A DNA stretch of 41,051 bases from Thioalkalivibrio sp. (lineage in GTDB: Bacteria > Pseudomonadota > Gammaproteobacteria > Ectothiorhodospirales > Ectothiorhodospiraceae): contig SKJG01000145.1 in assembly GCA_007116035.1 (NCBI GenBank), forward strand, positions 1 through 41,051, written 5' to 3'. The position numbers were made by a program, and so were the translations under genes. Of this stretch, positions 2,775-41,051 are shown in pieces. The notes beneath the pieces were generated by a model. The model worked only from the letters and a program-made list of their open reading frames with translations. It searched no databases and was not told where the DNA came from. Each line of letters opens with the position of its first letter. Position 1 is the first letter of the stretch.

Positions 2775-2813
2775 GGCGAGGTATCCGAAATTCAAAACGT
2801 TAAGGGGCGCTGA

Positions 2814-4302: not shown

Positions 4303-4307
4303 GAGCC

Positions 4308-4316: not shown

Positions 4317-4364
4317 CGTGTGCGTAGGTATTGATGGGTACGAAGGATCGCGGAAAGAGACCGA

Positions 4365-4373
4365 TTATCCACA
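4365..4373 (+). promoter_or_regulatory. DnaA box (perfect consensus)
   Basis: TTATCCACA is identical to the high-affinity E. coli R1/R4-type DnaA box. It sits 49 bp from the reverse-oriented box at 4308 and just before the AT-rich tract that leads into dnaN. Confidence 0.75.
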
Positions 4374-4513
4374 GGCTGAACACAGGTTGAAGGCGCGGTA
4401 AATACATCGCAAGCAACTGATTTACATGTGAAAATAAATACTTTTCCCGGATCTGACCGGTGCTTATTACTACAGTCTTCAAATATCTAAATACATAATA
4501 GGAAACCAGTGAT

Positions 4514-5614
4514 ATGGAGCTCACGTTCAACCGGGACAGCATGACGGATGCGCTGCAGCGCATCGTTGGAGCCGCCGAAAAGCGCCTGACGATGCCGATC
4601 CTGGGGAATGTCAGGATTCGCTCCGTCGACGACGGAATCCAGCTCGATACCACCGATCTGGAACTGGCTTGGTTGGCAAGGACACCCGGCGAGGCTTCGG
4701 TTGGGGTCGATTGCTCGGTCTCGGTCCGGAAACTGTTAGACGTCGTACGCGCAGCGCCTGCGGAAGCGATGGTTCACGCCCGGATTGATGGCGAAAGGCT
4801 GGTCGTCGGATTCGGTGCGTCACGGTTCAGCCTGGCGACCCTGCCTGGAGGGGATTTTCCGGAGCTGGAGTCGGCCGAGATCGAGCATTGGCTCACGGTA
4901 CCGCAGCGGCTGCTGCGAAGGCTGATCGAGGCGACGATGTTTTCGATGGCGCAGCAGGATGTGCGCTATTACCTGCAGGGGCTGCTGCTGGTGGCACAAG
5001 GGGCAACGCTGCGTTCCGTCGCCACCGACGGGCATCGTCTGGCGCTCACCGAAGCCGACCTGGAGAAACCGCTGCCGACCGACCAGGAGTGCATTATTCC
5101 GCGCAAGACCATTCAGGAACTTCGGCGCAATCTGCTGGATGACGAGACACCGGTCCAGGTGGGATTTGCACCGGGACAGGTCGCGTTTGACTTTGGCACC
5201 GCGAAATTGACCAGCAAAGTGATCGAAGGCCGCTTTCCCGATTACGAGCGAGTGATTCCCAAAGATCAGCCGTGCATCCTGATCGCGGAGCGTGAGGATC
5301 TTCGCCAGGCGCTGAACCGCGTTGCCATCGTGGCCAACGACAAGTTTCGTGGCGTTCGGCTGATGGCCGGTCCCGAGGGCTGCAGGGTTGTCACGCACAA
5401 CGCGGAACGCGAAGAAGCCGAGGAGGCGCTGCCGGCACGGTACGAAGGAGACGAGATCGAGATCGGCTTCAACCTGACCTACCTCGTCGATGTGCTGGGG
5501 GCGATCGCGGCAGACCAGATCCGGATCGAGCTTCGAGACGGCAATTCTTCGGCGCTGGTGATGGCAGAGCCACCGGACCGGGCACGCTACGTCGTGATGC
5601 CGATGCGGCTATAG
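4514..5614 (+). CDS. dnaN: DNA polymerase III beta subunit (sliding clamp)
   Basis: DnaN forms the ring-shaped dimeric clamp that tethers DNA polymerase III and many repair proteins to DNA. The product is 366 residues, the usual length. It starts MELTFNRDSMTDALQRIVGAAEKR and ends VMPMRL, the typical clamp C-terminus (xMPMRL). The three-domain clamp repeat is recognisable, with KLLDVVRAAP and the SKVIEGRFPDYERVIPK segment at about residues 234-250. An AGGAAA ribosome site (4500-4505) sits eight bases before the ATG. It follows dnaA in the conserved order, but recF does not follow immediately: 701 bp of repeat-rich DNA intervene. Confidence 0.97.
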   Translation: MELTFNRDSMTDALQRIVGAAEKRLTMPILGNVRIRSVDDGIQLDTTDLELAWLARTPGEASVGVDCSVSVRKLLDVVRAAPAEAMVHARIDGERLVVGFGASRFSLATLPGGDFPELESAEIEHWLTVPQRLLRRLIEATMFSMAQQDVRYYLQGLLLVAQGATLRSVATDGHRLALTEADLEKPLPTDQECIIPRKTIQELRRNLLDDETPVQVGFAPGQVAFDFGTAKLTSKVIEGRFPDYERVIPKDQPCILIAEREDLRQALNRVAIVANDKFRGVRLMAGPEGCRVVTHNAEREEAEEALPARYEGDEIEIGFNLTYLVDVLGAIAADQIRIELRDGNSSALVMAEPPDRARYVVMPMRL

Positions 5615-5648
5615 TTTCAGGATCCCGGGTTCCGGCCCCGCGGATTTC

Positions 5649-5664
5649 CGATGGGTACCCATCG
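5649..5664. repeat. Perfect 16-bp palindrome after dnaN
   Basis: CGATGGGTACCCATCG reads identically on both strands and lies 34 bp after the dnaN stop. There is no T-run, so it is not a standard terminator. It could be a protein-binding site or a stem for transcript ends. Confidence 0.5.
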
Positions 5665-5803
5665 ACGGATGATCCTGACCCACCAGGCGAACGGAGTAGC
5701 CCACGGGCAAGGGTAACGGCGGCGGATGGGAGTCCATCACCCCTATGGCGCTTCGCCAATCCGCCCCGACGCAAGCCATGTTTTTCAGCGTGAAAGGTTG
5801 TAG

Positions 5804-5829
5804 GTCGGGTTAGCGTCGCGTAACCCGAC
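5804..5829. repeat. GTCGGGTTA hairpin repeat, copy 1
   Basis: GTCGGGTTA and TAACCCGAC form a perfect 9-bp inverted repeat around an 8-base loop. The same arms recur at 5885 and 22969, all in non-coding DNA, so this is a dispersed palindromic repeat family of the REP type. Confidence 0.6.
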
Positions 5830-5884
5830 GTTCTGGAATGCCGGGGACAACGCTGCCTAGTGGGCCATGGGTGGGTAGGAGACG

Positions 5885-5916
5885 CGTCGGGTTACGCCCG
5901 TTGGGCTAACCCGACG
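5885..5916. repeat. GTCGGGTTA hairpin repeat, copy 2
   Basis: CGTCGGGTTA and TAACCCGACG form a perfect 10-bp inverted repeat with additional CCC/GGG pairing inside the loop (ACGCCCGTTGGGCT). It is the second copy of the family, 81 bp from the first. Confidence 0.6.
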
Positions 5917-6070
5917 TACCGTTTTCGGCTTGTCATCGTCAGGGGTGGCACCGGGCCATGAGCGTTAGGGTGCAGGTTACGGCCAGGCTTGTCCCAGGAT
6001 CCACGCCGCGACGGCGGGTGAAATCCTGCACTCGCGCTATGCGGTGCCGGAGTCAATCGAACTCCCCACA

Positions 6071-6088
6071 GCGGCGGCAAGCCGCCGC
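6071..6088. repeat. GCGGCGGC hairpin repeat, copy 1
   Basis: GCGGCGGCAAGCCGCCGC is a perfect 8-bp stem with an AA loop, followed by ACTCCCTAGGC. The same hairpin with nearly the same tail (ACTCCACAGGC) occurs at 19314, so it is a dispersed element. Confidence 0.6.
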
Positions 6089-6159
6089 ACTCCCTAGGCG
6101 CTGCGGGTTCCATCATTCGGGGTGGCGCTCCGAGGCCATGAGAGCTAGCGTGAAACACA

Positions 6160-6237
6160 GCCACGGAAGAACACGGACAGGACGGAAAATGAAAGGCATT
6201 CAAACTCTCTTCCGTGTGTTTCCGTGTTTTCCGTGGC
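6160..6237. repeat. CCACGGA/TCCGTGG inverted repeat, copy A
   Basis: This 78-bp imperfect palindrome begins GCCACGGAAGAACACGGA and ends TTTCCGTGTTTTCCGTGGC, with a central segment containing AAAATGAAAGGCATTCAAAC. Copy C at 17204 carries the same centre in reverse complement, so the unit is a true dispersed repeat and not a chance hairpin. Each arm contains repeated ACGGA units. Copy B lies at 7804. Confidence 0.7.
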
Positions 6238-6315
6238 TCGCCTTTTCAGGGTTAGGTGTGGGAGATCGCCATGATCGCTGGGATACCGTAATGCCAATGC
6301 TGGGCAAGCCACGAC

Positions 6316-7401
6316 ATGCTGGTTGAACTTTGGCTGCGTGGCGTGCGCAATCTGGCGGAGTGCCGCGTACGGCCAAGCGCCGGATTGAGTGTGTTCGTGG
6401 GTGCGAACGGCTCCGGCAAGACCTCGCTGCTGGAAGCCGCGTACGTGCTGGGACTAGGAAGATCTTTCCGGACGCACCGGTTGGCACGGGTCGCACAGAG
6501 TGGCGCGACCGAATTTGCCATGGCGGCGGAGCTTGACGACGCTCACCATGGCCGGTCGCGGGTCGCGGTGGAATGGTCCGGACAGCGACGGTCCCGATTG
6601 AACGGCCAATGGATGGAAGGCCACTGGGAAATCGCGCGGCGACTCCCGTTGGTTGCGGTCCACGCGGACTCCTTCGAATTGCTGACCGGCCCGCCGGAAG
6701 AGCGCCGCAGGCTGTTGGACTGGGGTGGTTTCTATGTCGACACCGACTTCGCGCGCGAATGGCGGACATGGCGACGCGCACACGAGCAGCGGAATGCCGC
6801 CCTGCGCCAGCACGATGAAAGGGGCGCGGAACGGTTCGAGGGCGTGGCCGCCAGTGCCGGAACCCGGTTGACCGAAATGCGTGCACGGTTCGTTCAGGAT
6901 CTGGCACAGCACCTGCGGGGCCCTACCACCGAGTCGCTGCGACAGGGGCTGCAGGGCGAGATTGAAGTGGCCTTCCGCCAGGGATGGCCCGACGGCGAAG
7001 ACCTTGTAGCGGCTTTTGCCCGCAGTCGATCCAGTGATCTCGAACGGGGGTTCGCGCAGACCGGGCCCCAGAAAGCCGATATCGAGATCCGGGTCGCGGG
7101 CCGCTCGATCCGAGAGGCGTCGCGGGGTGAACAGAAGCGGGTGTTGAACGCGCTGGTCGTCGCGCAAGGAAAGGTTCTGGTGTCCAGTGCACCAGCAGGC
7201 ATCGCGCCACTGCTGCTGCTCGATGACGCGGTTGCCGAGATGGACGAACCGGGGCTCGAGGGAGTCATGAGTGTAGTGGCGCAGTTGGGCTGGCAGTGCC
7301 TCGCGACCACCGTCGACGAGACCTGGGCGTTCGACGCGGCGGCAAGCCAATCGGACGCGACGATGTTTCACGTGAAACATGGAGTCATTACTCCCGGGTG
7401 A
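6316..7401 (+). CDS. recF: DNA replication/repair protein RecF
   Basis: RecF is an SMC-like ABC ATPase that loads RecA at single-strand gaps with RecO and RecR. The 361-residue product shows Walker A GANGSGKT (29-36), the family segment PLVAVHADSFELLTGPPEERRRLLDW (about 111-136), TGPQKAD (about 251), the ABC signature SRGEQKR (about 270) and Walker B LLLLDDAVAEMD (about 296-307). The ribosome site before ATG 6316 is weak, so the start is less certain. Unusually, a perfect parS palindrome is embedded in the last codons (7363-7380, read as MFHVKH), which may be why the C-terminus is longer than the usual end near the conserved D-loop region. Confidence 0.95.
   Translation: MLVELWLRGVRNLAECRVRPSAGLSVFVGANGSGKTSLLEAAYVLGLGRSFRTHRLARVAQSGATEFAMAAELDDAHHGRSRVAVEWSGQRRSRLNGQWMEGHWEIARRLPLVAVHADSFELLTGPPEERRRLLDWGGFYVDTDFAREWRTWRRAHEQRNAALRQHDERGAERFEGVAASAGTRLTEMRARFVQDLAQHLRGPTTESLRQGLQGEIEVAFRQGWPDGEDLVAAFARSRSSDLERGFAQTGPQKADIEIRVAGRSIREASRGEQKRVLNALVVAQGKVLVSSAPAGIAPLLLLDDAVAEMDEPGLEGVMSVVAQLGWQCLATTVDETWAFDAAASQSDATMFHVKHGVITPG
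7363..7380. promoter_or_regulatory. parS: parS site 1 (ParB/Spo0J binding), inside recF 3' end
   Basis: ATGTTTCACGTGAAACAT is a perfect 18-bp palindrome containing the core TGTTTCACGTGAAACA, the conserved bacterial chromosomal parS motif bound by ParB. ParB loads here and spreads to organise origin segregation with ParA and SMC. It lies within the recF coding sequence near its end. A second copy follows 666 bp away. The parAB genes are not in this window. Confidence 0.9.
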
Positions 7402-24236: not shown

Positions 24237-25199
24237 TCAGCCGCTGGCCGCGATCGGGAAGCGTGACCCAGCCGGGGCGCAAGGAACCGTAATCGGGTGC
24301 AGGGCTGGACAAGCTCTCCACGGTGCTGCAACGGGTCCGGCATGTGCGACGGCGCGAAGGCCCGCCCATCCGTGGCCCGTCGACGGAGGATCTGAACGCC
24401 GTCCAGGACGCGAAAGAACGGTATCGCCGTATCGGCCCTGGAGCTGCAAGCGGTAGCTGCCGTCCGGCTGCGGGCGGGCGATCGCATCCAGGGCCCCGGT
24501 CAGCGCGCGCTCAACCCCGGGCCCGGCGCGGAGTTCGAGGTCCACGCGATAGTCGCCGGCGGGGTGCCAGGAGGCGGTCCCGGTGGCCGCGAGCCCCGAC
24601 TCCGGCCCGGATTCGATCCACACGCCGAGCGCGCCCTCACGGGCCTCCAGCTCGGCACGGTATTGGCCCAGCGGCATGGTGCGGGGCAGGCCGGCCGCGG
24701 CCTCGGCCCAGTGCAGGGTGCCTTCGGCATCCTGGAAGCCCGCGTCGGCACTCCAGCGGATGCGCCCGATGTCGAGCGCGACCCTCCCGTCCAGCAGCAC
24801 CGGCAGGTCGAGCCAGGCCTGGAGCCGGCCGGCGTGCAGTTCGCCGCGCACGGCGCGGGCCGCGGCATCGCCACGTCCGAGTCGCAGGTGGCCCTGCAGC
24901 CGGTCCGGACCCGCCTGCCAGTCCAGCGCCAGCCCCAGCCGGCCGCGCAGCAGCGATCCGGGCTGCCAGCGCCATGCGACCGCACCGACATCCTGGCCGT
25001 TCACCCGCACCGGACCCGCCCGGCCGCGCCACACCGGACCCGACAGCGTGCCTGGATCGAGGGCAAATGGCAGATCCAGTCCCGGCTCGGCCAGCCGCCA
25101 GGCGAGGCTGGCCGGAAACAGCAGCACCAGCGCGACCAGGTACGCGGCGAGCACCAGCGCGCCGGCCCCGGCGATCTGCTTCGCGTGCGGGCGCATCAT
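24237..25199 (-). CDS. gspN: Type II secretion system protein N
   Basis: GspN is an accessory inner-membrane protein of the T2SS. The 320-residue product begins with a membrane helix (about residues 10-32, AGALVLAAYLVALVLLFPASL) followed by a periplasmic region with the typical GxVWxGRAGPVRVNGQDVGAVAWRW segment. The recognisable domain ends near residue 258 (YRLQLQGRY). The last 62 residues are rich in Pro, Arg, Ala and Cys and do not look like GspN; a lost stop or a small indel may have extended the frame. The start ATG at 25199 overlaps the gspM stop by ATGA. Family GspN proteins are usually nearer 250 residues. Confidence 0.85.
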   Translation of the reverse strand: MMRPHAKQIAGAGALVLAAYLVALVLLFPASLAWRLAEPGLDLPFALDPGTLSGPVWRGRAGPVRVNGQDVGAVAWRWQPGSLLRGRLGLALDWQAGPDRLQGHLRLGRGDAAARAVRGELHAGRLQAWLDLPVLLDGRVALDIGRIRWSADAGFQDAEGTLHWAEAAAGLPRTMPLGQYRAELEAREGALGVWIESGPESGLAATGTASWHPAGDYRVDLELRAGPGVERALTGALDAIARPQPDGSYRLQLQGRYGDTVLSRPGRRSDPPSTGHGWAGLRAVAHAGPVAAPWRACPALHPITVPCAPAGSRFPIAASG

Positions 25200-25690
25200 G
25201 AACGGCCGTTCGCGGATTCGATGCGCAGCTGGGCGTTGACCCGTCCCGGTTCGTTGCCCCGGTCGATGCTCAGGCTGACGACCCGCAGGCCGTGGCGGCT
25301 CTCCAGGGTGGCCAACCAGCCGACGAGCGCGGTGTAGGGTGCGCCTTCCAGTTCGGCCTCCACCGCCGATTCCAGCGGGCGCACGCGGCGCAGGGCCGAA
25401 CCCAGGCCGGCGGATCGGGCCGAGACGTCGACCACCCCCAGCGGTGAGCCAGTCGTCCGCGCGGCAGGCGTCGCCCCGGCGGCTCGGGCCTGGGCGCGCA
25501 CCGCGGGCTCCTGTGCTTGCATCCATGCCTGCTCATTCACCAGTGTCTGCAGTTGGCTGTTGAGCGCGCTGCGGCGTTCCAGGCCCGGTTCGACCACGAA
25601 GAGAAAAGCGATCACCAACAGCAGTGCCAGCCCGGCCAGCATCACGATCCGACGCTCGCGCGTGGCCAGGCCATCCCACCAGACCATCAC
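25196..25690 (-). CDS. gspM: Type II secretion system protein M
   Basis: GspM is a bitopic inner-membrane protein that joins GspL and the GspE ATPase in the assembly platform. The 164-residue product has a short cytoplasmic N-terminus (MMVWWDGLATRERRIVM), one membrane helix (about 16-34, LAGLALLLVIAFLFVVEP), a coiled helical region, then a ferredoxin-like periplasmic fold ending LRVVSLSIDRGNEPGRVNAQLRIE. Length and layout fit the family. It overlaps gspL and gspN by ATGA on both sides. Confidence 0.93.
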   Translation of the reverse strand: MMVWWDGLATRERRIVMLAGLALLLVIAFLFVVEPGLERRSALNSQLQTLVNEQAWMQAQEPAVRAQARAAGATPAARTTGSPLGVVDVSARSAGLGSALRRVRPLESAVEAELEGAPYTALVGWLATLESRHGLRVVSLSIDRGNEPGRVNAQLRIESANGRS

Positions 25691-26904
25691 GACCCACCCC
25701 CTTCGATTTGCAGCCGCGCGCGCACGCCCTGTTCATCGGACTCGGCCGAGAGGATCCGAACCGTGGCATCGGTACCCTCGCGCAGGCGGCTGCGCAGGCT
25801 GTCCAGGGCCGAGATGCTGTCCAGATCCAGCTCCAGTTCCAGGCGGCTGCCATCGCCACGCAACTGGCGCAATTCCACCCCGGCCTGGGCCAGGACCGGC
25901 GCTGCGCGGCCGAGCCGGTCTGCAATCGGGCCGGCGCCGGCAGCGGTGTCGGTGCCGGCGTCCAGGACCTGTCGAAACTGTCCGACCGGATCGATCATCC
26001 GGGTGTTGGGCAGCGTGGCCTCGAACAGGTCGGCGATGGCGAGATCGACGCGCGCGACCTCCCGTTCCAGCTGCCGGACTTCCAGCCACAGCGAGCCGGT
26101 CCACAGCAGGACCAGCGCCGCCGCGATCGCTGCGGGGACGCGCCAGCGGGACCACGCCTCCGCGCCGGAGCCGGCGGGGGTATAGGAGCCGGTCAGCAGG
26201 TTCAGTCCCGGGCGGCGCCCCAACGCAGGCGCGATCAGGGTCAGCAGGTCGCCATCCCAGCCCGGCGCCCTGACCTCGGTGCCGTCGCCGATGTCCGTGA
26301 CCGCCAGCTCGGGCGGCCCGTGCCAGGCGATCGCCATCTCCTCGCCCTGCTGCGTCTTCCACTGCTGCAGCCACCAGGGCAGGACCTCGTCGGCCAGCGC
26401 CAGCGGTTCGCCCCCGGGAACGCTCACCAGGCAGCGGTCGCCGGCCCAGTAGAGCTCGAGCCGGTCTGGCGGCGCCTCGGGCAGCAGTGCCGTGTCGGGG
26501 ATCAGGACCTGGGCGTCGATCCCGGCCTCGCGCAGCCACTCGAGCCAGGCGTCCATGTCCCGACGGGCGGCCACCGCCGCCTGCAGTCGTCCGTCGGGCA
26601 GCCGCGGCCCCGGAACGATGTGCATCGCCTCCAGGTCCTCACTCAGGCGCTCCTCCAGCGCGTAGGGCAGCGCCTGCCGCTGAGCCGATCGGGAGCGTGC
26701 GGGGATGGCCACGTGGTACAGCAGCACGCGTTCACCCGGAACCAGCGCCAGGACCCGGTCGCCGCGCTGGATCGCCGCGGGGATCTCGGCCAGCGGGGCC
26801 GATCCACGTTCGAGGACGCTGCCGTTGCCGATCCGTGCCCAGGAGAGGCTGCCCTCGGGGAAGGCCGCCTCGGGCTCCGGCAGGGTCAGCACAAACCAGT
26901 TCAT
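25687..26904 (-). CDS. gspL: Type II secretion system protein L
   Basis: GspL anchors the cytoplasmic ATPase GspE to the inner membrane and contacts GspM. I start at ATG 26904 (MNWFVLTLPEPEAAFPEGSLSWARI), preceded by GGAGG; the frame extends nine codons upstream without support. The 405-residue product has an actin-like cytoplasmic domain (about 1-245), with ALPYALEERLSEDLEAMHIV as the family-specific segment, a membrane helix (about 261-280, VPAAIAAALVLLWTGSLWL), and a periplasmic ferredoxin-like domain. It is separated from gspK by a 364-bp non-coding gap. Confidence 0.93.
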   Translation of the reverse strand: MNWFVLTLPEPEAAFPEGSLSWARIGNGSVLERGSAPLAEIPAAIQRGDRVLALVPGERVLLYHVAIPARSRSAQRQALPYALEERLSEDLEAMHIVPGPRLPDGRLQAAVAARRDMDAWLEWLREAGIDAQVLIPDTALLPEAPPDRLELYWAGDRCLVSVPGGEPLALADEVLPWWLQQWKTQQGEEMAIAWHGPPELAVTDIGDGTEVRAPGWDGDLLTLIAPALGRRPGLNLLTGSYTPAGSGAEAWSRWRVPAAIAAALVLLWTGSLWLEVRQLEREVARVDLAIADLFEATLPNTRMIDPVGQFRQVLDAGTDTAAGAGPIADRLGRAAPVLAQAGVELRQLRGDGSRLELELDLDSISALDSLRSRLREGTDATVRILSAESDEQGVRARLQIEGGGS

Positions 26905-27268
26905 CGGGGACCCGCCTCCGACCCCGTGCATGCCACGACCTGATGATCACGAAAGCTCCGCAACCCGTTCTGTCGTGCACCACGCACCGTCCACATGGGC
27001 CGCCCCTCGTAGGAGGCGAGCCCCCTCGCCGATCCGGAGCCGGAAAACCCATCGGCCAGGGGCTGGCCTCCTACAGCCGGACCCCATGAAACAACAGGAA
27101 TCTGACCGTCCGCGGAGCTTGCATGATCATCACCTCCCACGAAATCCGGGAGGCCCGCCAGGCTGCGCGCCGACAACCGCCCAACCCGATGCCGTCGAAG
27201 GATCGACCCGGGCCTGCCGAAGGATCTGTGCAGCGTTCCCCTGAGGGCTTGGCGCGTTGTCACCGAAT
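26905..27268. other. Non-coding gap splitting the gsp operon
   Basis: This 364-bp region between gspK and gspL carries copy 2 of the ~130-bp dispersed element (26939-27071). From 27072 to 27268 I see no supported gene; a 48-codon plus-strand frame (from about 27123) has no convincing ribosome site. All other junctions in this operon are overlaps or short, so the gap is probably an insertion. Confidence 0.55.
26939..27071 (+). repeat. Dispersed ~130-bp element, copy 2
   Basis: On the plus strand this runs CCTGATGATCACGAAAGC ... GTCGTGCACCACG ... AGGAGGCGAGCCCCCTCGCCGAT ... AACCCATCGGCCAGGGGCTGGCCTCC. It matches copy 1 (7627-7755, minus strand) block by block. The distal part is a strong imperfect inverted repeat: the arms at about 27010-27033 and 27051-27073 agree at roughly 20 of 23 positions. 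Confidence 0.7.
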
Positions 27269-28069
27269 CTAGTTCTCGCAGGAAGTGAACTCGCGTACCA
27301 CAGTACGCCCGTTGGGCGCATCGAGTACGGCGCAATGAAAGAAGTCGCGCTGCGGCAGGCGGGCAACCAGCGACAGCCGGAAGTAGCGCAGGCCTTCGGT
27401 CTGCTCGCCTTCCTGCACGCCAGCCGCGTCACGCACGACGTCCGGAGCGCGCTCCATGTCGATCAGGTTATCCGTTCCCGGCCGTGCGGTCACGTAGGGC
27501 GCGATCGCGTCCCACATTTCCGGTGTCATGCCCTGCACGCGATTCAGCTCGGACGCCAGCAGAAAGGGCCGGTTGCCGCTGCGTTCCGGCGGCGTGCGTA
27601 GCCGGTAGACCGGGTCGTCGGTCTCCGGGTCCATCCAGTCGCGGATGGCTGCCGCGAGCTGCTCGCCCTGCCAGGCGGCGATGTTCGCCTCGGACCCGGC
27701 GCGGGCCACCAGGTCCGCAAAGGCGGCGACCGGCGCGTCTTCGACGCGGGCCAGGCTGTTCAGGTTGAACCGGCAGTGCAGGTTCTCCAGGCTCGCGATC
27801 AGGTCGATGCCGTCGATCACCAGTGGCACCGGCGGGGACACGCAGGTGTCCCAGGGCAGCTCGTTCAGGTTCGGCCACTGCTCCAGCAGGCGCAGGGCCA
27901 TGACCTCGGCGCCGAGCAACAGGCTGCGCGCGAGATCCTGCTCGAAGACCAGTCCGGAGCGCTGGATCTGGGTGTGGTCGCGCACACTCATCCCGATCGC
28001 CGCGGTGACCGCGATCGCGACCACCAGCAGGGCGGTGATCAGCGCGACGCCTCGCTGCCGCCGTCTCAT
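27269..28069 (-). CDS. gspK: Type II secretion system minor pseudopilin K
   Basis: GspK is the tip protein of the T2SS pseudopilus, forming a complex with GspI and GspJ. The 266-residue product has a prepilin-like N-terminus MRRRQRGVALITALLVVAIA: cleavage after Gly7 and a hydrophobic helix. The usual Glu at position 5 of the mature protein is absent, which is normal for GspK. The family segment WMDPETDDPVYRLRTPPERSGNRPFLLASELNRV (D-x-x-x in the calcium region) is present. At 266 residues it is shorter than the common 300-330. It overlaps gspJ by ATGA and is last before the gap. Confidence 0.93.
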   Translation of the reverse strand: MRRRQRGVALITALLVVAIAVTAAIGMSVRDHTQIQRSGLVFEQDLARSLLLGAEVMALRLLEQWPNLNELPWDTCVSPPVPLVIDGIDLIASLENLHCRFNLNSLARVEDAPVAAFADLVARAGSEANIAAWQGEQLAAAIRDWMDPETDDPVYRLRTPPERSGNRPFLLASELNRVQGMTPEMWDAIAPYVTARPGTDNLIDMERAPDVVRDAAGVQEGEQTEGLRYFRLSLVARLPQRDFFHCAVLDAPNGRTVVREFTSCEN

Positions 28070-28698
28070 ACACCCCCCGGCAGGGCCAGGTGCCGCTCGA
28101 CCCGGCCCAGGCCCGGCACCTCGAGGATGATCTCCACCAGCGCCGGCAGCGTGCGCTGCGGGTCGGCCCCGCGCAGCGGCGGCCAGCTGTCCAGGACTTC
28201 CTCGCCGCGCGCGCCCGGGTTCACGAAGCGCAGCTCCATCAGCACGGGCTCACGGCCGTCCCGGGTGTCGCGGGCGGCCAGGAAGACCCGCGCCATCGGC
28301 TCGGTATCGTCACCCGCGTCGATCACGTCCCAGAGCCGCCGCTCCAGGCCTTCCTCGGTCACCCGCCAGCCGATCCGGCGCAGCCGGTCGGTGCCGCCGC
28401 TGCCCGTGCGCACCAGTTCCAGTTCGGGCTCGGTGGCCAGCGGGCTGTAGCGCAACGCAGGCTGGCGGTCGCCGAAGCGGTCGCGCGGCTCGACCGTCGC
28501 GACCTGGCGCAGGTCGCGCTCGAGGACCGCCAGGGTCACCTGCAGCTCGGCCAGCACGCCGCCGCGCAGCCGGGTCTGGCTGTCGGCGTTCAGCACCGCC
28601 TGCAGGCCGCCGTAGGCGAGCGCACTGACCACCGCGAACACCGCCACCGCGATCAGCAGTTCGAGCAGCGTGAAGCCGCGTACGCGGGTCCGCTTCAT
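28066..28698 (-). CDS. gspJ: Type II secretion system minor pseudopilin J
   Basis: GspJ is a minor pseudopilin of the tip complex with GspI and GspK. I start at ATG 28698 (MKRTRVRGFTLLELLIAVAVFAVVSALAYGG), giving 210 residues; the open frame upstream runs inside gspI. The prepilin peptidase site is RG|FTLLE with Glu5, followed by a hydrophobic helix. The segment LAELQVTLAVLERDLRQ is typical. It overlaps gspI and gspK by ATGA at both ends. Confidence 0.95.
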   Translation of the reverse strand: MKRTRVRGFTLLELLIAVAVFAVVSALAYGGLQAVLNADSQTRLRGGVLAELQVTLAVLERDLRQVATVEPRDRFGDRQPALRYSPLATEPELELVRTGSGGTDRLRRIGWRVTEEGLERRLWDVIDAGDDTEPMARVFLAARDTRDGREPVLMELRFVNPGARGEEVLDSWPPLRGADPQRTLPALVEIILEVPGLGRVERHLALPGGV

Positions 28699-29099
28699 GG
28701 CAGCAGGTACCCGACGGCGCGGGCGCGCACATCCGCGGCCGGGCCGCTGGCGGGCCACACCGTGACCTCGACGCGCAGCACCGGCGGCAGCTCCAGCGGC
28801 GCCTCGGGCACTTCCTCCCGGATCTCGACGCGATACTCCCAGTCCTGGCCCGCCTGCCGCAGGCTGCCCTGGCCGGTCCCGGGTCGCGGCAGCAGCAGGC
28901 CGGCCTCGTAGCGTGCAACCAGGTTCTGTCCGACCCAGTGCGCAAGGGTGCGCTCCTGCAGATAGTGGGTATTGCGGGTGTGCTCCGAGCCGGCCTTCAC
29001 CAGCGCCCCCAGTGCCACCGCGAGGATGGCCAGCGCGACCAGCACCTCCAGCAGCGTGAAGCCGCGCGCTGCGTGCAATGGGGCTCGCCCCGGCGTCAT
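28695..29099 (-). CDS. gspI: Type II secretion system minor pseudopilin I
   Basis: GspI is the minor pseudopilin that starts tip assembly by recruiting GspJ and GspK. The 134-residue product has the leader MTPGRAPLHAARG followed by FTLLEVLVALAILAVALGALV, with cleavage after Gly13 and Glu5 of the mature form present. The NLVARYEAGLLLP stretch also fits the family. It overlaps gspH and gspJ by ATGA. Confidence 0.95.
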   Translation of the reverse strand: MTPGRAPLHAARGFTLLEVLVALAILAVALGALVKAGSEHTRNTHYLQERTLAHWVGQNLVARYEAGLLLPRPGTGQGSLRQAGQDWEYRVEIREEVPEAPLELPPVLRVEVTVWPASGPAADVRARAVGYLLP

Positions 29100-29632
29100 C
29101 GCAGCGTCTCCAGCAGCAGCCGTCCGTCGCGCGCACCGGTCACGCGCAGGATGTCGCTGGCCCCCCCGGCGGGCCGCATCTCCAGTTCGAAGGGAGTCAG
29201 TTCGCCGGCGCCGTTGAACAGGACCTGGGGGCGATCGGCGCGGTCGTCCAGCGGGACCACCCGGCCTTCCTGGCGCAGGCGCAGTTCGACGCCCAGGTGC
29301 TCCACCGAGCGGGGTCCCAGGGGCGCGCGGTCGAGTTCGATCCAGGTCACGCGGGCGTCATCGAGAAAGACCTGCTCCAGGAACGCATAGCCGTTGCGCG
29401 AGAAGCCCAGTGCGCGGGCCTGGCCGGTCAGCAGGCTCTCGTCGCGTGCCAGCCCCGCCAGTTCCACCAGCCGCCGCGCCTCCTGTTCCATCTGGCGCGA
29501 GGCGCCGCCGCCCACCGCCAGCACCGCGAAGCCGACCAGCAGGCCGAAGATCAGCAGCACCACCAGCAATTCGAGCAGCGTGAAGCCCCGGCGCCGCTGC
29601 CGCCTGCCGCTGCTGGCCGTGCCCGTTGTCAC
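29096..29632 (-). CDS. gspH: Type II secretion system minor pseudopilin H
   Basis: GspH is a minor pseudopilin that links the tip to the GspG filament. The 178-residue product starts at GTG 29632 and has the leader RRQRRRG then FTLLELLVVLLIFGLLVGFAV, with Glu5 present. The following GGASRQMEQEARRLVELAGLARDESLLTGQARALGF segment is typical for GspH (helix, then the residues that mirror RLxxLLxxARxEA). The start codon is not ATG and its ribosome site is weak, which may limit expression. It lies 8 bp after gspG and overlaps gspI. Confidence 0.94.
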   Translation of the reverse strand: MTTGTASSGRRQRRRGFTLLELLVVLLIFGLLVGFAVLAVGGGASRQMEQEARRLVELAGLARDESLLTGQARALGFSRNGYAFLEQVFLDDARVTWIELDRAPLGPRSVEHLGVELRLRQEGRVVPLDDRADRPQVLFNGAGELTPFELEMRPAGGASDILRVTGARDGRLLLETLR

Positions 29633-29640
29633 CCGGGAGC

Positions 29641-30102
29641 TCAGAAGTCGTCGAGGTTCCAGTTGCCGATCTCGGCGTTGATCCCGGTGCCGCCGCGGCG
29701 GCCGTCGGCGCCGAAGCTGAAGATGTCGATGTCACCGCGGGTACCCGGGTTCAGGTACTGGTAGTCGTTGCCCCAGGGGTCCTTGGGCAGTCGGTCCATG
29801 TAGCCACCGGAGCGGTAGTTGCGCGGCTCGGGCCCGGTGCGCGGCCGCTCGACCAGCGCCTGCAGCCCCTGGTTGGTGTCCGGGTACACGAAGTTGTCGA
29901 GGCGGTACAGGTTCAGCGCCGATTCGAGCGCGCGGATGTCGCTCTTGACCTTGGTGATGCGGGCGTCGTCCGGGCGGTCCATCACCCTTGGCACGACGAT
30001 GGCGGCAAGGATGCCGAGGATCACCACGACCACCATGATCTCGATCAGGGTGAAACCGTGGCTGCGGCCGCGGACGGTGCTGGGGTATTGCATTGGGGAC
30101 AT
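29641..30102 (-). CDS. gspG: Type II secretion system major pseudopilin G
   Basis: GspG is the major subunit of the periplasmic pseudopilus. The 153-residue product has the leader MSPMQYPSTVRGRSHG followed by FTLIEIMVVVVILGILAAIVVPRVM, with Glu5 present. The C-terminal part carries the calcium-site loop and the signature LPKDPWGNDYQYLNPGTRGDIDIFSFGADG, diagnostic for GspG. Start alternatives are ATG 30102 or 30093; both keep the leader. It begins three bases after the gspF stop. Confidence 0.97.
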   Translation of the reverse strand: MSPMQYPSTVRGRSHGFTLIEIMVVVVILGILAAIVVPRVMDRPDDARITKVKSDIRALESALNLYRLDNFVYPDTNQGLQALVERPRTGPEPRNYRSGGYMDRLPKDPWGNDYQYLNPGTRGDIDIFSFGADGRRGGTGINAEIGNWNLDDF

Positions 30103-30105
30103 GAT

Positions 30106-31317
30106 CTAGTTCACCAGTTGGTTCAGTTCAAAGATGGGCAGCAGGATAGCCAGCACGATGGTCAGCACCACGGCGCCCATGGTCACGATCAGCAGCGGCT
30201 CGAACAGGCCGACCACCATCGCGATGCGGGTCTCCAGTTCGCGCTCCTGGGTCTCGGCGGCCCGCTCCAGCATCTCGTTCAGCTTGCCGCTGGACTCGCC
30301 GCTCCGGATCAGGTGCACCGTCATCGGCGGAAAGTACCCGCTCTGTTCCAGCGCACGGCCGATGCTGCTGCCCTCGCGCACGCGCGCCGCCGCAGCCGCC
30401 ACCGCCGCCCGCATCGGCCGGTTGCCGATCACTTCGCCGCTGGTGCGCAGGGCCTCCAGCAGTGGGACACCGCTGGCCGCCAGAATGCTCAGTGTGCGTG
30501 CGAAGCGGGCGGTGTTCAGGCCGCGTGCCAGGCGCCCGACCAGCGGCAGGCGCAGCAGCAGGGCATGATACCGGTAACGCCAGTGTTCGTGTCGCAGCAG
30601 GCGGCGCAGGCCGAACAACAGCACGACCAGGCCGGCCAGCGCCCACAGCCCGAAGTCGCGCAGGGCGTCGCTGGTCGCGATCAGGGCGACGGTCAGCCAC
30701 GGCAGTTCCTGACCGATGCCGGCGAAGACCTGCACCACCTCCGGCACCACGAACGCGAGCAGGGCCACGGTGACGCCGATCGCGACCAGGGTCAGGATCA
30801 GCGGGTAGAACAGCGCGAGACTGATCTTCTGGCGCAGCGCGTTGCGGCTCTCGGTGTAGTCGGCGAGCCGCTCCAGCACCAGGTCCAGATGCCCGGACTG
30901 CTCGCCGGCGGCGACCGTGGTCCGGTAGAGTTCGGGAAAAACGCGGGGAAACGCGGCCAATGCCGACGCCAGCGCATGCCCCTCCATCACCCGCGTGCGC
31001 ACCGCGGTCAGCACGTTGCGGATCCGCGCCTTCTCGGTCTGCCGCGCCACCGTGCCGAGGATCTCCTCGACCGGCAGCCCGGCGCGGGCCAGCGTGGCCA
31101 TCTGCCGTGTGGCCAGCGCCAGGTCCAGCGGGCTGATGCCGCGCCCGCCGAGGGTCAGGCCGCCGCTGCGGGCCTGCTCGCGGACTTCCTCGACCTGCAG
31201 CGGGTTCAGGCCATCCTGACGCAGCCGGGCGCGGACCGCCCGGGCCGTATCGCCCTCGGCGACGCCCTTGCGCCTGCGGCCGCCGGCATCCAGCGCCTGG
31301 TATTCAAACGCGGGCAT
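30106..31317 (-). CDS. gspF: Type II secretion system inner membrane protein F
   Basis: GspF is the polytopic core of the inner-membrane platform that contacts GspE and GspL. I start at ATG 31317 (MPAFEYQALDAGGRRRKGVAEGDTARAVRARLRQDGL), giving 403 residues; the frame is open 16 codons further. It has two homologous cytoplasmic domains, each followed by membrane helices, with the conserved LATRQMATLARAGLPVEEIL segment (about 72) and ARFARTLSILAASGVPLLEAL (about 270). The C-terminus has the helix IVTMGAVVLTIVLAILLPIF. It lies 70 bp after gspE. Confidence 0.96.
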   Translation of the reverse strand: MPAFEYQALDAGGRRRKGVAEGDTARAVRARLRQDGLNPLQVEEVREQARSGGLTLGGRGISPLDLALATRQMATLARAGLPVEEILGTVARQTEKARIRNVLTAVRTRVMEGHALASALAAFPRVFPELYRTTVAAGEQSGHLDLVLERLADYTESRNALRQKISLALFYPLILTLVAIGVTVALLAFVVPEVVQVFAGIGQELPWLTVALIATSDALRDFGLWALAGLVVLLFGLRRLLRHEHWRYRYHALLLRLPLVGRLARGLNTARFARTLSILAASGVPLLEALRTSGEVIGNRPMRAAVAAAAARVREGSSIGRALEQSGYFPPMTVHLIRSGESSGKLNEMLERAAETQERELETRIAMVVGLFEPLLIVTMGAVVLTIVLAILLPIFELNQLVN

Positions 31318-31387
31318 GGCGGCGCAACGGGACGGCCGGCTGGAACCGGCGGGGGCAGGTGCCACGGAGCTGCAGGGTCACCGCTAG

Positions 31388-32908
31388 TCAGTCCTCACGG
31401 GTGACACGAACGACTTCTTCGATCGAGGTCGTGCCGTCGAGGATGCGGCGCACGCCGTCGGCGCGGATGTTCGGCGTCGACATGCGGACATGCTCAGCCA
31501 TCGCGCGTTCACCAATTCCGTCGTGGATCATCTGGCGCAGCGTATCATCGACTTCGATCAACTCGTAGATCCCGGTGCGGCCCCGATACCCCAGCCCGTT
31601 GCACTTCGGGCAGCCGCGAGCCCGGTGGATCAGGGGCGGGTCGGACAGGTCCAGGCCCAGCTGGATGCACTCGCTGTGGGTGGCGACGGCCGGCTTGCGG
31701 CAGCTGGTGCACAGCACACGCACCAGGCGCTGGGCCAGGATCCCGTTCAGCGTGGACGCCAGCAGGAAGGGTTCCACGCCCATGTCCCGCAGACGGGTGA
31801 TCGTGCCAATCGCCGAATTGGTGTGCAGGGTCGAGAACACCAGGTGTCCGGTCAGGCTCGCCTGGACCGCGATCTGCACCGTCTCCAGGTCGCGGATCTC
31901 GCCGACCATCACCACGTCCGGGTCCTGGCGCAGGATCGCGCGCAGTCCGCGTGCGAAGGTCATGTCGACCCGGGTGTTGATCTGGGTTTGGCCGATGCCG
32001 TCGAGGTAGTACTCGATCGGATCCTCCACCGTCAGGATGTTGCGGCTGCGGTCGTTCAGGCGCATCAGGGCGGCGTACAGCGTGGTGGTCTTGCCCGAGC
32101 CGGTGGGACCGGTCACGAGCACGATACCGTGCGGACGGCTGATCACCCGCTCCATGCCCAGGTACTGCTCTTCGGCCATGCCCAGGTGGCGCAGTTCCAG
32201 GCGCCCGGCCTGCTTGTCGAGCAGCCGCAGCACCACCCGCTCGCCGTGCCCGGAAGGCAGCGTGGAGACGCGCACGTCGACCGGGCGGCCGGCGACGCGC
32301 AGGGAAATGCGCCCGTCCTGGGGCAGGCGCTTCTCGGCGATGTCGAGCCGCGCCATGACCTTGACCCGGGAGACGATCAGCGGCGCCAGGCTCACCGGCG
32401 GGTTCAGCACCTCGCGCAGCACGCCGTCCACACGCAGACGCACCGAAAGGCGGGTCTCGAAGGGTTCGATGTGGATGTCGGAGGCGTTCTCGCGCACGGC
32501 CTCGGTCAGCAGGGCGTTGATCAGGCGGATGATCGGTGCGTCGTCCTCGGCCTCGAGGAGGTCCTGCGGTTCGGCCAGGGACTCGGCCACGCTGAGCAGG
32601 TCGCCGCCCTCGTTCAGGCCCTCGACAAAGTTCATCGCGTCGTTGCTGCTGCGCTCGTGCTGCTCGCGCAGCCTCAGGTCGAACTCGTCGGTACTCAGCG
32701 GCTCGAGCTGCAGGCGCTCCGCGCTGCGCCGGCGGATCTCGAGCACCGCCATCGGGTCCGCATCGGCGCGCAGGTACAGGGTGCGGCGGCCATTCACCAC
32801 CGGTCCCGGCAGCACCCCGGAGCGGCGCGAGAAGCCGTAGCCCGGGCTGAGCGGCTCGGCAGGGCCTGCGCCCACGGTCATGGTTTCGGGATCCGGCAGG
32901 GCGCTCAT
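31388..32908 (-). CDS. gspE: Type II secretion ATPase E
   Basis: GspE is the cytoplasmic ATPase that powers the pseudopilus. The 506-residue product (start ATG 32908, overlapping the gspD stop by ATGA) has Walker A GPTGSGKT (267-274), the Asp box around [10 protein letters not shown] (291-300), Walker [15 protein letters not shown] (327-340) and the His box TLHTNSA (360-366). The zinc-binding pair CTSC (400-403) and CPKC (433-436) separates GspE from twitching ATPases. The frame extends 41 codons upstream, but that part overlaps gspD and is not GspE-like. The first 120 residues are a reduced N-terminal domain that binds GspL. Confidence 0.97.
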
Positions 32909-34896
32909 CGATACCGGGGCGGTACGCCGAGCGGATTCAGTTCCGCGAACGGCGGCGGCAGGCGGGTCAGTTCCTCGAGGCGCGGGTTCGTCTCGGAGAA
33001 CGGGGGCGGCAGGTAGGTCAGTTCCCGCCACTCGGGCAGCAGCAGGGTATCGTCGTTGATGCCGCGTCTGCCCCGCTGGGCCTCGAGCAGTTGCTGGCGA
33101 CGGATGTAGCTGTATTTCTCGCTGGTTAGCTCGGCCCCGGTGGCGTTGGTGCGCACGATCCGAGGGTACAGGAAGACCATCAGGTTGAGCTTCTCCGTGC
33201 TCTCGCTGTCGTAGCGGAACAGGCGCCCGAGGCCGGGGATGTCGCCGAGCCCGGGGACCTTGTCGCGGGTCTCGATCCGGTTCTCGGAAATCAGGCCGCC
33301 GAGCACGAGCATCTCGCCGTCGTCCACCATCACGTGGGTGCGCAACGAGCGGGTGTTGGTGACCAGATCGCGGGCGTCACCCGTCGGCGCAAGGGAGGAG
33401 ACCTCCTGCTCGACCTCGAGCCGGATCGCGTTCCCCTCGTTGATCTGCGGCCGTATCCGCAATTTGACGCCGATGTCCTCGCGGCGGATGGTGTCGAAGG
33501 CCTGGCCGGAGTCCTCGACCGAGCGGCCGACCACGAACGGCACGTTCTGGCCGACGACGATCTCGGCCTCCTCGTTGTCCAGGGTCAGCAGGCTGGGTGT
33601 GGACAGGATGTTGCTGGACGTGTCCCCCTGCAGGGCGCTGATCAGCAACGCGATCTGGGTGCTGCCGCTGCTGCCGATGCCGCCCAGGGAAATGCCGTCC
33701 CCGGGGTTGGGGGGTGCCGCGACGTCACCGTCCAGAAAGGCCCGCACGCCCGACGCGAGCCGCAGCAGGCCGCGTCCGTCGCGGTCGAAGTTGATCAGTC
33801 CGAAACCCGAGCTCGGCGATCCCGCAGCCCACTGCACGCCAAGCTGCCGGACGCGATCGGAGGAGATCTCGGCGATCACCGCCTCCACCATCACCTGCGC
33901 CCTGCGGATGTCCAGTCTTTCGATGATGTCGGCGTAATCCTGTGTATCCTCCGGCGCGCCGAAGATGACCACCGCGTTGGTGCTCTGGTGCGCCTGGATG
34001 CGCACCGAGCCTCCGGTGCGCCGGGCGTCGGCGCCGGCCTCCTGCCGGGTTTCGGCGATGCCGCGCAGCACCTCCACCACGTCCTCGGCCTGAGCGTAAC
34101 GCAGGTAATGGACCTGGGTGTTGCCCACCGCAACCGCCGTATCCAACTGCGAGATCAGCGCACGCAGCGGGATCCGGCGCTCCGGGTCGCCGGACAGGAT
34201 GATGGCGTTGGCGCGCTCGTCGGCCAGTACGCGCACGCGTCCCCGGGCGGCGGGTCCGTCGCCGGTTCCGGTCTCGAGTTCGCGCAGCTTGGTGGCCAGG
34301 CTCGCGGCATTGGCGTGGCGCAACTGAATGACCTCGAAGCCTTCGGGTACCGGCTGGTCGATGCGCGCGACCAGCTCCCGGATGCGGCGCACGTTGGCCA
34401 CCGTATCCGAGACCAGCAGCGAATTGGTTTCGGTAGCGGCCGCCAGGTGCCCGCCCTGAGGCACCAGCGGGCGCAGGATCGGCACCAGCTGCGCTGCGCT
34501 CACGTGTTCCGTGTGGATCACGTGGGTCACGATCTCGTCGTCGCGCAGGCGCTCGTGGGCGAACAGGTTGGGAATGTCGCCCTGCTTGGCCTGCACGTCG
34601 GGGACGATCTTGGTCGCCGCGCCGCTGGGCACTGCGGCGAAACCGTAGACCTTCAGCACGCCGAGGAAGAGGTCGTACAGCTCATCGCGCGCCACGGGAC
34701 GGCCTGAGACCACACTGACGCGCCCACGGACCCGGGGGTCGATGATGAAATTGGTGCCGGTCTCTTCGGCAACGAGGTCGATCAGCGTCTGGATTTCGGC
34801 ATCGCGCAGATTCAGCGTCAGCGTGTCGGCTTGCGCCACCGGCACCAGCCAGGAAAGCGCGGCAAGGACGAGCATCGGCAGTAATCTGCGAAACAT
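32905..34896 (-). CDS. gspD: Type II secretion outer membrane secretin D
   Basis: GspD forms the outer-membrane channel. The 663-residue product (ATG 34896; a TTG four codons earlier is weaker) has a signal peptide to about residue 24 ([23 protein letters not shown]), N-terminal N0-N3 domains ([13 protein letters not shown] ... [14 protein letters not shown] ... [16 protein letters not shown]), and the secretin core with NVPFVVG and [14 protein letters not shown] (about residues 555-570), the conserved gate region. After the core comes an unusual tail: two 14-residue repeats (625-638 and 642-655) of the form ELTxLPPPFxExNP. That tail is where pilotin-binding S-domains normally lie. The gene overlaps gspE by ATGA and starts eight bases after the gspC stop. 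Confidence 0.96.
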
Positions 34897-34904
34897 AGAG
34901 GCTC

Positions 34905-35774
34905 TCAATCGACCAGCTCGATGCTGAGGGGCAGCGCCTGGCCGTCACGCTCGACCACGAGTTCCACACGCAGTTGGCCGGCCAGATCCTGAAACAGGCG
35001 ATCAGCGTCATCGATCGCCGACAGCGGTATGCCATTAACGGAAGTTATCACGTCGCCGGGTCGGAGTCCGGCCTGCTGGAACTGCCGGGCATTGCGCGTC
35101 GGGCTGACCTCCAGTCCGTGCAGCACACCACCCTGGATCACGGGCCGCGCCCGTACCGTCTGCAGCAGGCGCTCGGGATCGCCGAGCCACTCGGAGCGCT
35201 GTATGCGCGGCTCGTCGGTCGCGTTGGGGGCCGGTGCCGGGGCTGCCGTCCGGACGGGTGCCGCGCTGGCCGGTGCACCTGCCGTGCTGCCGTCCGAGCG
35301 CGGGAGGCGCAGGGTCTCGTAGCCGCCGTCGCGCTCCAGGATCACACGGTCGATGTGGATCTGGTGCAGCCGGGCCTGACCGCCACCCACCGCATCGCCA
35401 ACCCGATACAGGCGCTCGGGGCTGCCACTCTCGACGATAATCGCGTGGCCCTGCTCCGGGGCGTCACTGGCCATCAGGCCCACCAGGCGTAGCCGCAGCC
35501 GCGTCTCCGGGGCCACCACGGGTTCGGGTGCGGCGCGCTCGCCGAGCACCCCGAACAGCGGCAGCCTGGCAACCGTGGCGAAGGGCGACTCGGTGGCGGC
35601 GGCCGTCGTCGGCGCGACGCTCTCGGCCGTGATGTCGACCGTCGCCGTCGGCCGCACGTCGGGCTCCAGCGCCTGCCAGGTCAGCTGCGCCGCCATCACG
35701 CCCAGGCCCAGCAGCAAGAGCACGCTGACGACGCGGGGCAGGACGGACGGTGGGGTCGTTGCAATGGCCAACAT
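34905..35774 (-). CDS. gspC: Type II secretion inner membrane protein C
   Basis: GspC is a bitopic inner-membrane protein that connects the platform to the secretin. The 289-residue product has a short cytoplasmic N-terminus, a membrane helix (about 13-31, RVVSVLLLLGLGVMAAQL), the HR region with LPLFGVLG and LRLRLVGLMASD (about 70-103), a linker rich in Ala, Pro and Thr (about 160-187), and a C-terminal PDZ-like domain with AGLRPGDVITSVNGIPLSAIDD (about 239-260). It is the first gene of the gsp operon. Its start at 35774 is followed upstream by a 375-bp gap to gpmI. Confidence 0.94.
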   Translation of the reverse strand: MLAIATTPPSVLPRVVSVLLLLGLGVMAAQLTWQALEPDVRPTATVDITAESVAPTTAAATESPFATVARLPLFGVLGERAAPEPVVAPETRLRLRLVGLMASDAPEQGHAIIVESGSPERLYRVGDAVGGGQARLHQIHIDRVILERDGGYETLRLPRSDGSTAGAPASAAPVRTAAPAPAPNATDEPRIQRSEWLGDPERLLQTVRARPVIQGGVLHGLEVSPTRNARQFQQAGLRPGDVITSVNGIPLSAIDDADRLFQDLAGQLRVELVVERDGQALPLSIELVD

Positions 35775-39472: not shown

Positions 39473-40111
39473 ATGAGCATCGGCATCGTGCTTGCGGAAC
39501 ATCATCCGATCGTGATCGAAGGGTTGAAGAGCCTGATTGAAGGCGAACCGGACATGGACATCGTGGCCGCCTGCAGTAGTGGCGCAGAGGCGCTGGAGGC
39601 CCTGCGGGAGAAGCCCGCGGACGTGCTCCTGGCCAGCCTCGGTCTGCCGGATATGAGCGGGCTCGACCTGCTGCGCACACTGCGGGTCGAGGAACTGGGC
39701 ACGCGCTGCGTCCTCTTCGTGGGCAGCATCGGCGACGAGGACGCAGCGGAGGCCATGCGCCTGCGGGTCGAGGGCATCCTGCTCAAGGAAATGCCGACCC
39801 GATTGGTGCTTCAGTGCATCCGAAAGGTGCACGACGGGGGCCGCTGGGTGGAGACCCAGTCCATGACGCGCGTCGTCGACCGCCTGCAGGCGCAGCAGAA
39901 CGGCCGCGGCGAGTTCCTCGACCGCCTCTCACCGCGCGAACAGGAAGTCACCCGCCTGGTGATGTCCGGCCTCAACAACAAGGACATCGCCGCCACGCTC
40001 TCCCTGAGCGTCGGCACCATCAAGATCCACCTGCACAATATCTACGAAAAACTCGGCCTGCGCTCCCGCCTCCAACTCGCCGCCTTCGCCCGCGAAAAAG
40101 GCTTCGACTGA
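39473..40111 (+). CDS. LuxR/NarL-type regulator with a degenerate receiver domain
   Basis: The 212-residue product has a receiver-like domain (about 1-120) and a LuxR-type helix-turn-helix (about 148-205: LSPREQEVTRLVMSGLNNKDIAATLSLSVGTIKIHLHNIYEKLG), so it should bind DNA. In normal receivers the N-terminal acidic pair is DD and the phospho-acceptor is Asp; here the pair is Glu9-His10 (AEHHP) and the acceptor position is Ser55 (LLASLGLPDMSG). Switch residue Ser85 and Lys105 are kept. It is therefore probably not phosphorylated in the usual way and may work constitutively or through another signal. A ribosome site AAGGAG precedes the ATG. No partner kinase lies next to it. Confidence 0.9.
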   Translation: MSIGIVLAEHHPIVIEGLKSLIEGEPDMDIVAACSSGAEALEALREKPADVLLASLGLPDMSGLDLLRTLRVEELGTRCVLFVGSIGDEDAAEAMRLRVEGILLKEMPTRLVLQCIRKVHDGGRWVETQSMTRVVDRLQAQQNGRGEFLDRLSPREQEVTRLVMSGLNNKDIAATLSLSVGTIKIHLHNIYEKLGLRSRLQLAAFAREKGFD

Positions 40112-40160
40112 GCCCACGGGACGAACCCAGGGGTCGGACCAAGCCAAACCACTGATGTAA

Positions 40161-40198
40161 AAGGGAAATCGGCTAGAATATACCCGCGATTTGCCCTT
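40161..40198. repeat. Inverted repeat after the regulator gene
   Basis: AAGGGAAATCG (40161-40171) and CGATTTGCCCTT (40187-40198) are complementary except for one bulged base. They flank GCTAGAATATACC, which holds a TAGAAT -10-like motif. It could be an operator over a promoter or the transcript end of the regulator. Confidence 0.45.
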
Positions 40199-40353
40199 AT
40201 ACGGCCGTTTTTGCCGGTGAGTGCGTTGTTAAGCTGAGAAGGTGGTATCGGTGCCCTGTTCAAGGGTGCCGAATGGAGCCGCTACGGCGCCACCCGCCCG
40301 CACCGAGGGTGATCATCGGCAACTCAACCACGACGTGGGTCTGCCGACACATG

Positions 40354-40375
40354 TGGTCACTCTCCTGCCGCAAAT
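40354..40375 (+). promoter_or_regulatory. Direct repeat 1, possible activator-binding site
   Basis: TGGTCACTCTCCTGCCGCAAAT matches the repeat at 40406 at all but about three positions. It lies roughly 157 bp before the start predicted from the sigma-54 match, a normal distance for an enhancer-binding protein site. Confidence 0.5.
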
Positions 40376-40405
40376 CGTCACCTGCTGGCAAGCAACAGGC
40401 CGTTC

Positions 40406-40428
40406 TGGTCAGTCTCCTGCCGTTAAAT
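40406..40428 (+). promoter_or_regulatory. Direct repeat 2, possible activator-binding site
   Basis: TGGTCAGTCTCCTGCCG plus TTAAAT repeats the motif at 40354. Start-to-start distance is 52 bp, about five helical turns, so both would lie on the same face of the DNA. Confidence 0.5.
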
Positions 40429-40495
40429 ACCATGATGGCCTCAAGATCTGCCGGCCCTTGCCGCTAACAGAGTTAAGCCCAACGAGTAGACACAG

Positions 40496-40511
40496 CGGCA
40501 CAGGAATTGCT
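40496..40511 (+). promoter_or_regulatory. Sigma-54-type -24/-12 promoter
   Basis: CGGCACAGGAATTGCT fits the consensus TGGCAC-N5-TTGCW with one mismatch in TGGCAC and correct spacing between the GG and GC pairs (10 bp). It lies in non-coding DNA with two upstream direct repeats, the layout of an enhancer-dependent promoter. The leader to the next gene would be about 245 bases, which is long. Confidence 0.5.
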
Positions 40512-40768
40512 CGCGGGTTATTGGGAGGGCGCAGCGCCAAACGGAGCGGCGGCTGCCCCACTCGGTGCACTTTGCAGACTGCTCTGCCTGAAACACGTCT
40601 TTATAGTGCGGCGAGGGGTGGAGTTGCAGCACTGACGGGCCAGGGTCATCGCCACAAGTTACAACAGGGTTTCCATAGGATGAAGCGAGATCAAACGAGC
40701 GCTACTGGCCGACCCGTGAGTTCCAGTCAGTACGCAAGATCACGGGCGAGCCACGGACCGCGTTGCAG

Positions 40769-41051
40769 ATGAGGCGTTCGGCCAACAGGCGGTTTGCCAG
40801 CGGCGAGGATATCAACCAGGTCTCGGCAGCCAAGGCCGCGCCCGCTCAGCCGCTCTCGGTTGCCCCGTCCGCGGGTACCCGCAGGCCCCTGCGGCTGCGG
40901 CATGGGCACATCCAGTTCCTCGGGCGGGACGTGTCCAGCTCGATGATCCTGCTCCTGCTGGCAGAATTCCTGATCCTGATGGGCGCTCTATCCCTGGCGG
41001 CCCTTCCCGCGGTCCAAAGCGTGTTTTCGACCCAAGGGGTTGGCCCGCAGG
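40769..41051 (+). CDS. Membrane protein, N-terminus only; possibly an exosortase/EPS-type sugar transferase
   Basis: The frame is open from 40769 (ATG) to the right edge, giving 94 codons. The first 45 residues are polar, rich in Ala, Arg and Pro (MRRSANRRFASGEDINQV). Then HGHIQFLGRDV leads into a membrane helix at about 59-80 (MILLLLAEFLILMGALSLAAL). The pattern of a short HIxxF motif followed by a hydrophobic LLxxLExLxxMGA segment resembles the start of sugar transferases linked to exosortase (PEP-CTERM) systems. That is an impression from the N-terminus only; the catalytic domain is outside the window. The ribosome site is weak, and TTG 40763 is an alternative start. Confidence 0.55.
   Translation, partial: MRRSANRRFASGEDINQVSAAKAAPAQPLSVAPSAGTRRPLRLRHGHIQFLGRDVSSSMILLLLAEFLILMGALSLAALPAVQSVFSTQGVGPQ

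Follow-up and report, generated by a model that had tools for sequence, protein, structure and literature searches.

An intergenic spacer of ~650 bp in Thioalkalivibrio sp. carries two nearly identical direct repeats, set in helical phase upstream of a candidate -24/-12 (sigma-54) promoter element, and the gene that follows is homologous to sugar transferases of the EpsB/TIGR03013 kind. The spacer is probably regulatory. At a probability of roughly 0.45, we read it as the control region of the transferase gene: a regulator would bind GTCA sites at TGGTCAC (40354), TCGTCACC (40375), and TGGTCAG (40406), which share a face of the helix; sigma-54 RNA polymerase would start at about 40522 from CGGCACAGGAATTGCT; and the gene would be activated through looping by an NtrC-type activator of the genome other than PrsR. 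The sigma-54 start, taken by itself, is a fair guess at near even odds.

The window analyzed, 41,051 nucleotides long, is the whole of contig C80 in an assembly of 3.03 Mb and 186 contigs, and the genome is 99.7% complete. The genes dnaA, dnaN, and recF lie consecutively at 2494-7398, a row that usually marks the chromosomal replication-origin region, and a type II secretion operon is found farther along on the minus strand (about 24240-35774). The spacer is preceded by a + strand gene for a LuxR/NarL-type response regulator (39473-40111; Pfam Response_reg and GerE) and followed by the transferase gene, also on the + strand, which begins with TTG at 40763 or ATG at 40769. Multiple sequence matches place a dispersed REP-like repeat (AGGGGTCGGACCAAGCC..., listed without a strand) at 40130-40216, outside the promoter; it has many copies of 72-100% identity in the same genome and in several relatives.

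Since the window spans its contig from end to end, the downstream gene is cut at 41051 and is represented by its 5' part (40763-41050). The 96 residues of its product, which lie mostly ahead of the profile start, match no family in a profile search. G014, a relative of the same genus, has a 522-aa protein whose N-terminus is 51% identical to them over 81 residues; this protein matches TIGR03013 with 547 bits against a cut-off of 393. TIGR03013 describes sugar transferases of exopolysaccharide systems; its family name refers to the XrtA/PEP-CTERM system. The initial annotation had proposed a sugar transferase here, and this part of the guess is supported, since the nearest homologue, in the syntenic G014, is of the TIGR03013 (EpsB-type, EpsB_2) family. 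The gene probably starts exopolysaccharide synthesis. Synteny with G014 takes in gspD, gspC, phosphoglycerate mutase (iPGM), the LuxR-type regulator (ORF L149:5002-5796), an extra gene, and the transferase. The extra gene, absent from the window, encodes a 345-aa protein without an NCBIfam match (L149:6007-7044) and is located between the regulator and the transferase.

The repeats, TGGTCAcTCTCCTGCCG (40354) and TGGTCAgTCTCCTGCCG (40406), were located by repeat and pair searches and are identical at 16 of 17 positions, with starts 52 bp apart, or 4.95 helical turns. Copy 1 (TGGTCACTCTCCTGCCG) occupies 40354-40370 and copy 2 (TGGTCAGTCTCCTGCCG) occupies 40406-40422, both on the + strand; a further GTCA half-site, TCGTCACC, lies at 40375-40382 (+), 21 bp after copy 1. 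This is the only direct pair in the window of 17 nt with at most one mismatch and within 200 bp. First-order Markov shuffles gave a mean of 0.1 such pairs per window, and 0 of 2000 shuffles gave one for the spacer. The in-phase pair that had been described thus stands, far beyond chance for the spacer, while its positions, initially put at -157 and -105, required correction. A sigma-54 transcript starts 12 nt past the GC, whose C lies at 40510 in the -12 element; +1 is therefore predicted near 40522, and the repeat starts move to about -168 and -116.

Sites of NtrC-type enhancers usually have dyad symmetry and share one helical face some 100-200 bp upstream. The phasing and the distance of the repeats fit this arrangement, but no dyad symmetry was found in them. 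The initial annotation had made recurrence of the repeat before other sigma-54 promoters a test of its reading, and a whole-genome motif scan gave a negative outcome. The motif precedes no other gene genome-wide, the only near copy lying inside a LysR-type gene. Across a collection of 84,980 species genomes, the pair turned up in just two places, both unrelated coding tandem repeats, one in Lederbergia and one in a Dehalococcoidia MAG; viral contigs scanned for the 17-mer held 31 single copies; and a search of the spacer DNA against plasmids, phages, and 369 genomes of the class returned chance-level matches only.

These searches also bear on a non-regulatory origin, in which the repeat block would have arisen as a small local duplication or been left behind by the end of an IS21-type insertion sequence. 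Ends of the IS21 type carry several transposase-binding repeats. IS21-family ends in this genus do bear short direct repeats, and the spacer is rich in dispersed elements (the REP-like repeat at 40130-40216, and a palindromic insert in G014), both of which are consistent with such an origin. However, the ends from the genus differ in sequence and have a period of 22-23 bp, and their likeness to the block is at chance level; the outcomes for plasmids, phages, class genomes, and species genomes also count against such an origin. We consider a relic or duplication improbable, and the IS21 end in particular, an idea that came from the TGGTCA repeats, was not supported.

The candidate -24/-12 element, CGGCACAGGAATTGCT (40496-40511, +), has the highest -24/-12 score in the window, 14.45, by a matrix that follows the general consensus with approximate weights. 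Its match is exact as quoted in the initial annotation, and the chance estimate given there, ~0.3 per window, agrees well with shuffled windows, which yield 0.27 equal sites on both strands; for the + strand of the spacer, P is about 0.006. The element keeps the GG-N10-GC core and, relative to TGGCAC-N5-TTGC, has one mismatch in 10 fixed bases (C for T), a level expected 3.1 times per window by chance. Copy 2 is separated from the -24 element by 73 bp. The distance from the site to the start codon is 251-257 bp, leaving a leader of about 245 nt in which no RNA element was recognized by an Rfam search and whose fold is no better than that of shuffles. One rpoN gene (PF04552, contig C86) is present in the genome, and the NtrC-like PrsR profile finds about 24 matches there, from which an activator for the site might be drawn.

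By sequence comparison, conservation of the promoter features with G014 appears modest. The best ungapped match to the G014 spacer is a 39-bp block over the first repeat (40344-40382, +; L149:7234-7272) with 28/39 positions identical (72%) and a score of 17 that was reached by 1 of 600 shuffles. The block spans TGGTCACT of the first repeat and the GTCACC 21 bp later, and thus the further half-site is matched in G014; most of the TCTCCTGCCG half of the repeat differs there, and copy 2 is not recognizable in the G014 spacer. Spacings between the GTCA sites are 21 and 31 bp in the window, compared with 11 and 10 bp in G014. G014 also has a weaker -24/-12-like site, CGGCATGGAAACTGCT, 86 bp before the transferase start; its score has a P of about 0.05, and its resemblance to the window site a P of 0.026. 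Between the block and this site lies a dispersed palindromic element of 117 bp (L149:7359-7475) that has CTGTAGGTCG at its ends; its first 31 bases are also found in L016, on contig C16 of the genome under study. With the 117-bp insert left out, the distances from repeat to promoter come to about 168 and 142 bp. In a scan of 29 regions upstream of homologues in the order, with L154 left out, no other -24/-12 site came near the score in the window, and the other homologues in the order have neither the repeat block nor a comparable site. Since the block and the -24/-12-like site are matched in G014 alone, the evidence from conservation is one relative deep.

Between the -24/-12 site and the gene sits a 116-bp element (40525-40640, +) whose TATAGT-bearing sequence, TTTATAGTGC, is a possible sigma-70-type start. 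The core of this non-coding element is about 80% identical to a region before another gene (contig C103; also in G018), and it was located at window 40525-40640, at L008:1498-1614, and, on the reverse strand, at L003 296-381. It is common to only two loci of the genome, each some 130-600 bp before a gene, and keeps CTYTATAGTG (TATACT in C103). Transcription might come from a sigma-70-type promoter within this element (CGTCTTTATAGTGCGGC), in which case the -24/-12 match would be due to chance and the repeats would be bound by an ordinary repressor or response regulator of the kind that recognizes direct repeats spaced by about one or two turns. The retention of CTYTATAGTG before another gene in C103 and G018 is in keeping with such a promoter, as are the GTCA spacings in the two genomes and their lack of a dyad. 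So is the presence of TTATAGTGC about 40 bp ahead of the likely start of a second TIGR03013 gene in the genome (contig C143), whose product shares 43% identity with the G014 protein. However, the alignment score between the window spacer and the promoter of that second gene is within the shuffle range, the TATAGT has no -35-like hexamer, a consensus scan found no sigma-70 promoter with both hexamers in the spacer, and the repeats lie about 200 bp upstream of TATAGT. We hold a sigma-70 start with a conventional regulator to be somewhat unlikely. The two spacers also share the 15-mer TTGCCGCTAACAGAG (= YTGCCGCTAAYAGAG), which is present exactly twice in the genome (G000), at window 40458-40472 (+) and at C143:1626-1640, each time upstream of a TIGR03013-type gene. 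The match may be of chance origin, as one of this length between spacers of that size is not rare (0.1 by a rough hand estimate).

Sigma-54 control of the transferase gene is favored by the unique repeat pair, the top -24/-12 match, the presence of rpoN and of activators, and the G014 block with its weaker site. Against it count the choice of the site from 41 kb, where chance gives 0.27, the long leader, the TATAGT element, the lack of motif recurrence and of a dyad, the unrecognizable copy 2 in G014, and the finding that other homologues of the order have no comparable site in a usable position.

The exosortase connection fared less well. The initial annotation had linked the promoter to PrsK-PrsR/exosortase regulation, and the name of the downstream family, TIGR03013, which refers to the XrtA/PEP-CTERM system, speaks for a PrsR-dependent PEP-CTERM promoter. 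Yet no exosortase (PF09721) matched in this 99.7%-complete genome, and none was found in G014 (67% complete) or G018. PrsR (TIGR02915) is likewise missing above its cut-off, the best score in the genome being 412 versus 502.6, even though 17 of the 30 genus genomes have PrsR above cut-off and 17 have an exosortase. The XrtA/PrsR reading thus does not apply to this genome, and the promoter is not part of that system.

The published PEP-CTERM motifs lead to the same view. Motif 1, a 17-mer terminating in TTTACA, is followed after 32-92 bp by the -24/-12 site; this site, motif 2, is 23-221 bp away from the start codon (Haft et al. 2006, PMC1569441). The likeness to our spacer consists in a repeatable 17-nt upstream motif tens of bp before a -24/-12 site, a long non-coding spacer, and an exopolysaccharide context (PMC1569441), and the 73-bp gap from copy 2 falls within the published range. 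The repeat, in contrast, has the form TGGTCA-S-TCTCCTGCCG and ends in TGCCG rather than TTTACA; the distance to the start codon exceeds the published range at about 251-257 bp; and the gene is a probable sugar transferase in a genome without PrsR or exosortase, whereas the published motifs precede PEP-CTERM genes (PMC1569441). The TTTACA plus -24/-12 pattern was absent from all 30 genomes of the genus; this pattern may be too strict, since even the PrsR-bearing relatives lack it. A PrsR-dependent promoter is accordingly mostly refuted on the missing proteins, the motif end, and the start-codon distance, and we consider it very improbable.

Other systems resemble the proposed sigma-54 control of the transferase in part. 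In Aquincola tertiaricarbonis, pepA is RpoN-dependent with a mapped -24/-12 start (TGGCAC, CTGCTT), while the exopolysaccharide biosynthesis genes themselves seem independent of RpoN1 (PMC9850573). Both cases place a -24/-12 site before an exopolysaccharide-linked gene; the start is mapped there and predicted here, and pepA, unlike the transferase, is a PEP-CTERM gene (PMC9850573). In Burkholderia cenocepacia, the enhancer-binding protein BerB and RpoN control the Bep exopolysaccharide (PMC9684580). An enhancer-binding protein and sigma-54 turn on exopolysaccharide there, as is proposed here, but BerB acts via berA and not directly at a sugar transferase promoter (PMC9684580). Relatives in the same genus have TIGR03013-type (EpsB_2) loci with the same kind of protein (e.g., contig C155 of G038), but in these loci PrsR is encoded within a few kb, and the region upstream of the transferase lacks a comparable -24/-12 site.

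Nothing here is outside the known kinds of bacterial promoters. The spacer probably holds an ordinary regulated promoter, lineage-specific and of a known kind, possibly one of the sigma-54 class. It is doubtful that one lineage of the genus controls an exosortase-free TIGR03013-type transferase through a new type of sigma-54 enhancer, built of in-phase GTCA direct repeats in place of dyads. Sigma-54 control of exopolysaccharide is already known, and the practical gain is modest. Should the site be in use, it would provide a case of a sugar transferase gene under direct sigma-54 control, probably acting at the entry step of exopolysaccharide synthesis, in a lineage from which the exosortase/PrsR system was lost or always absent, and would help to separate the control of polysaccharide from that of PEP-CTERM proteins.
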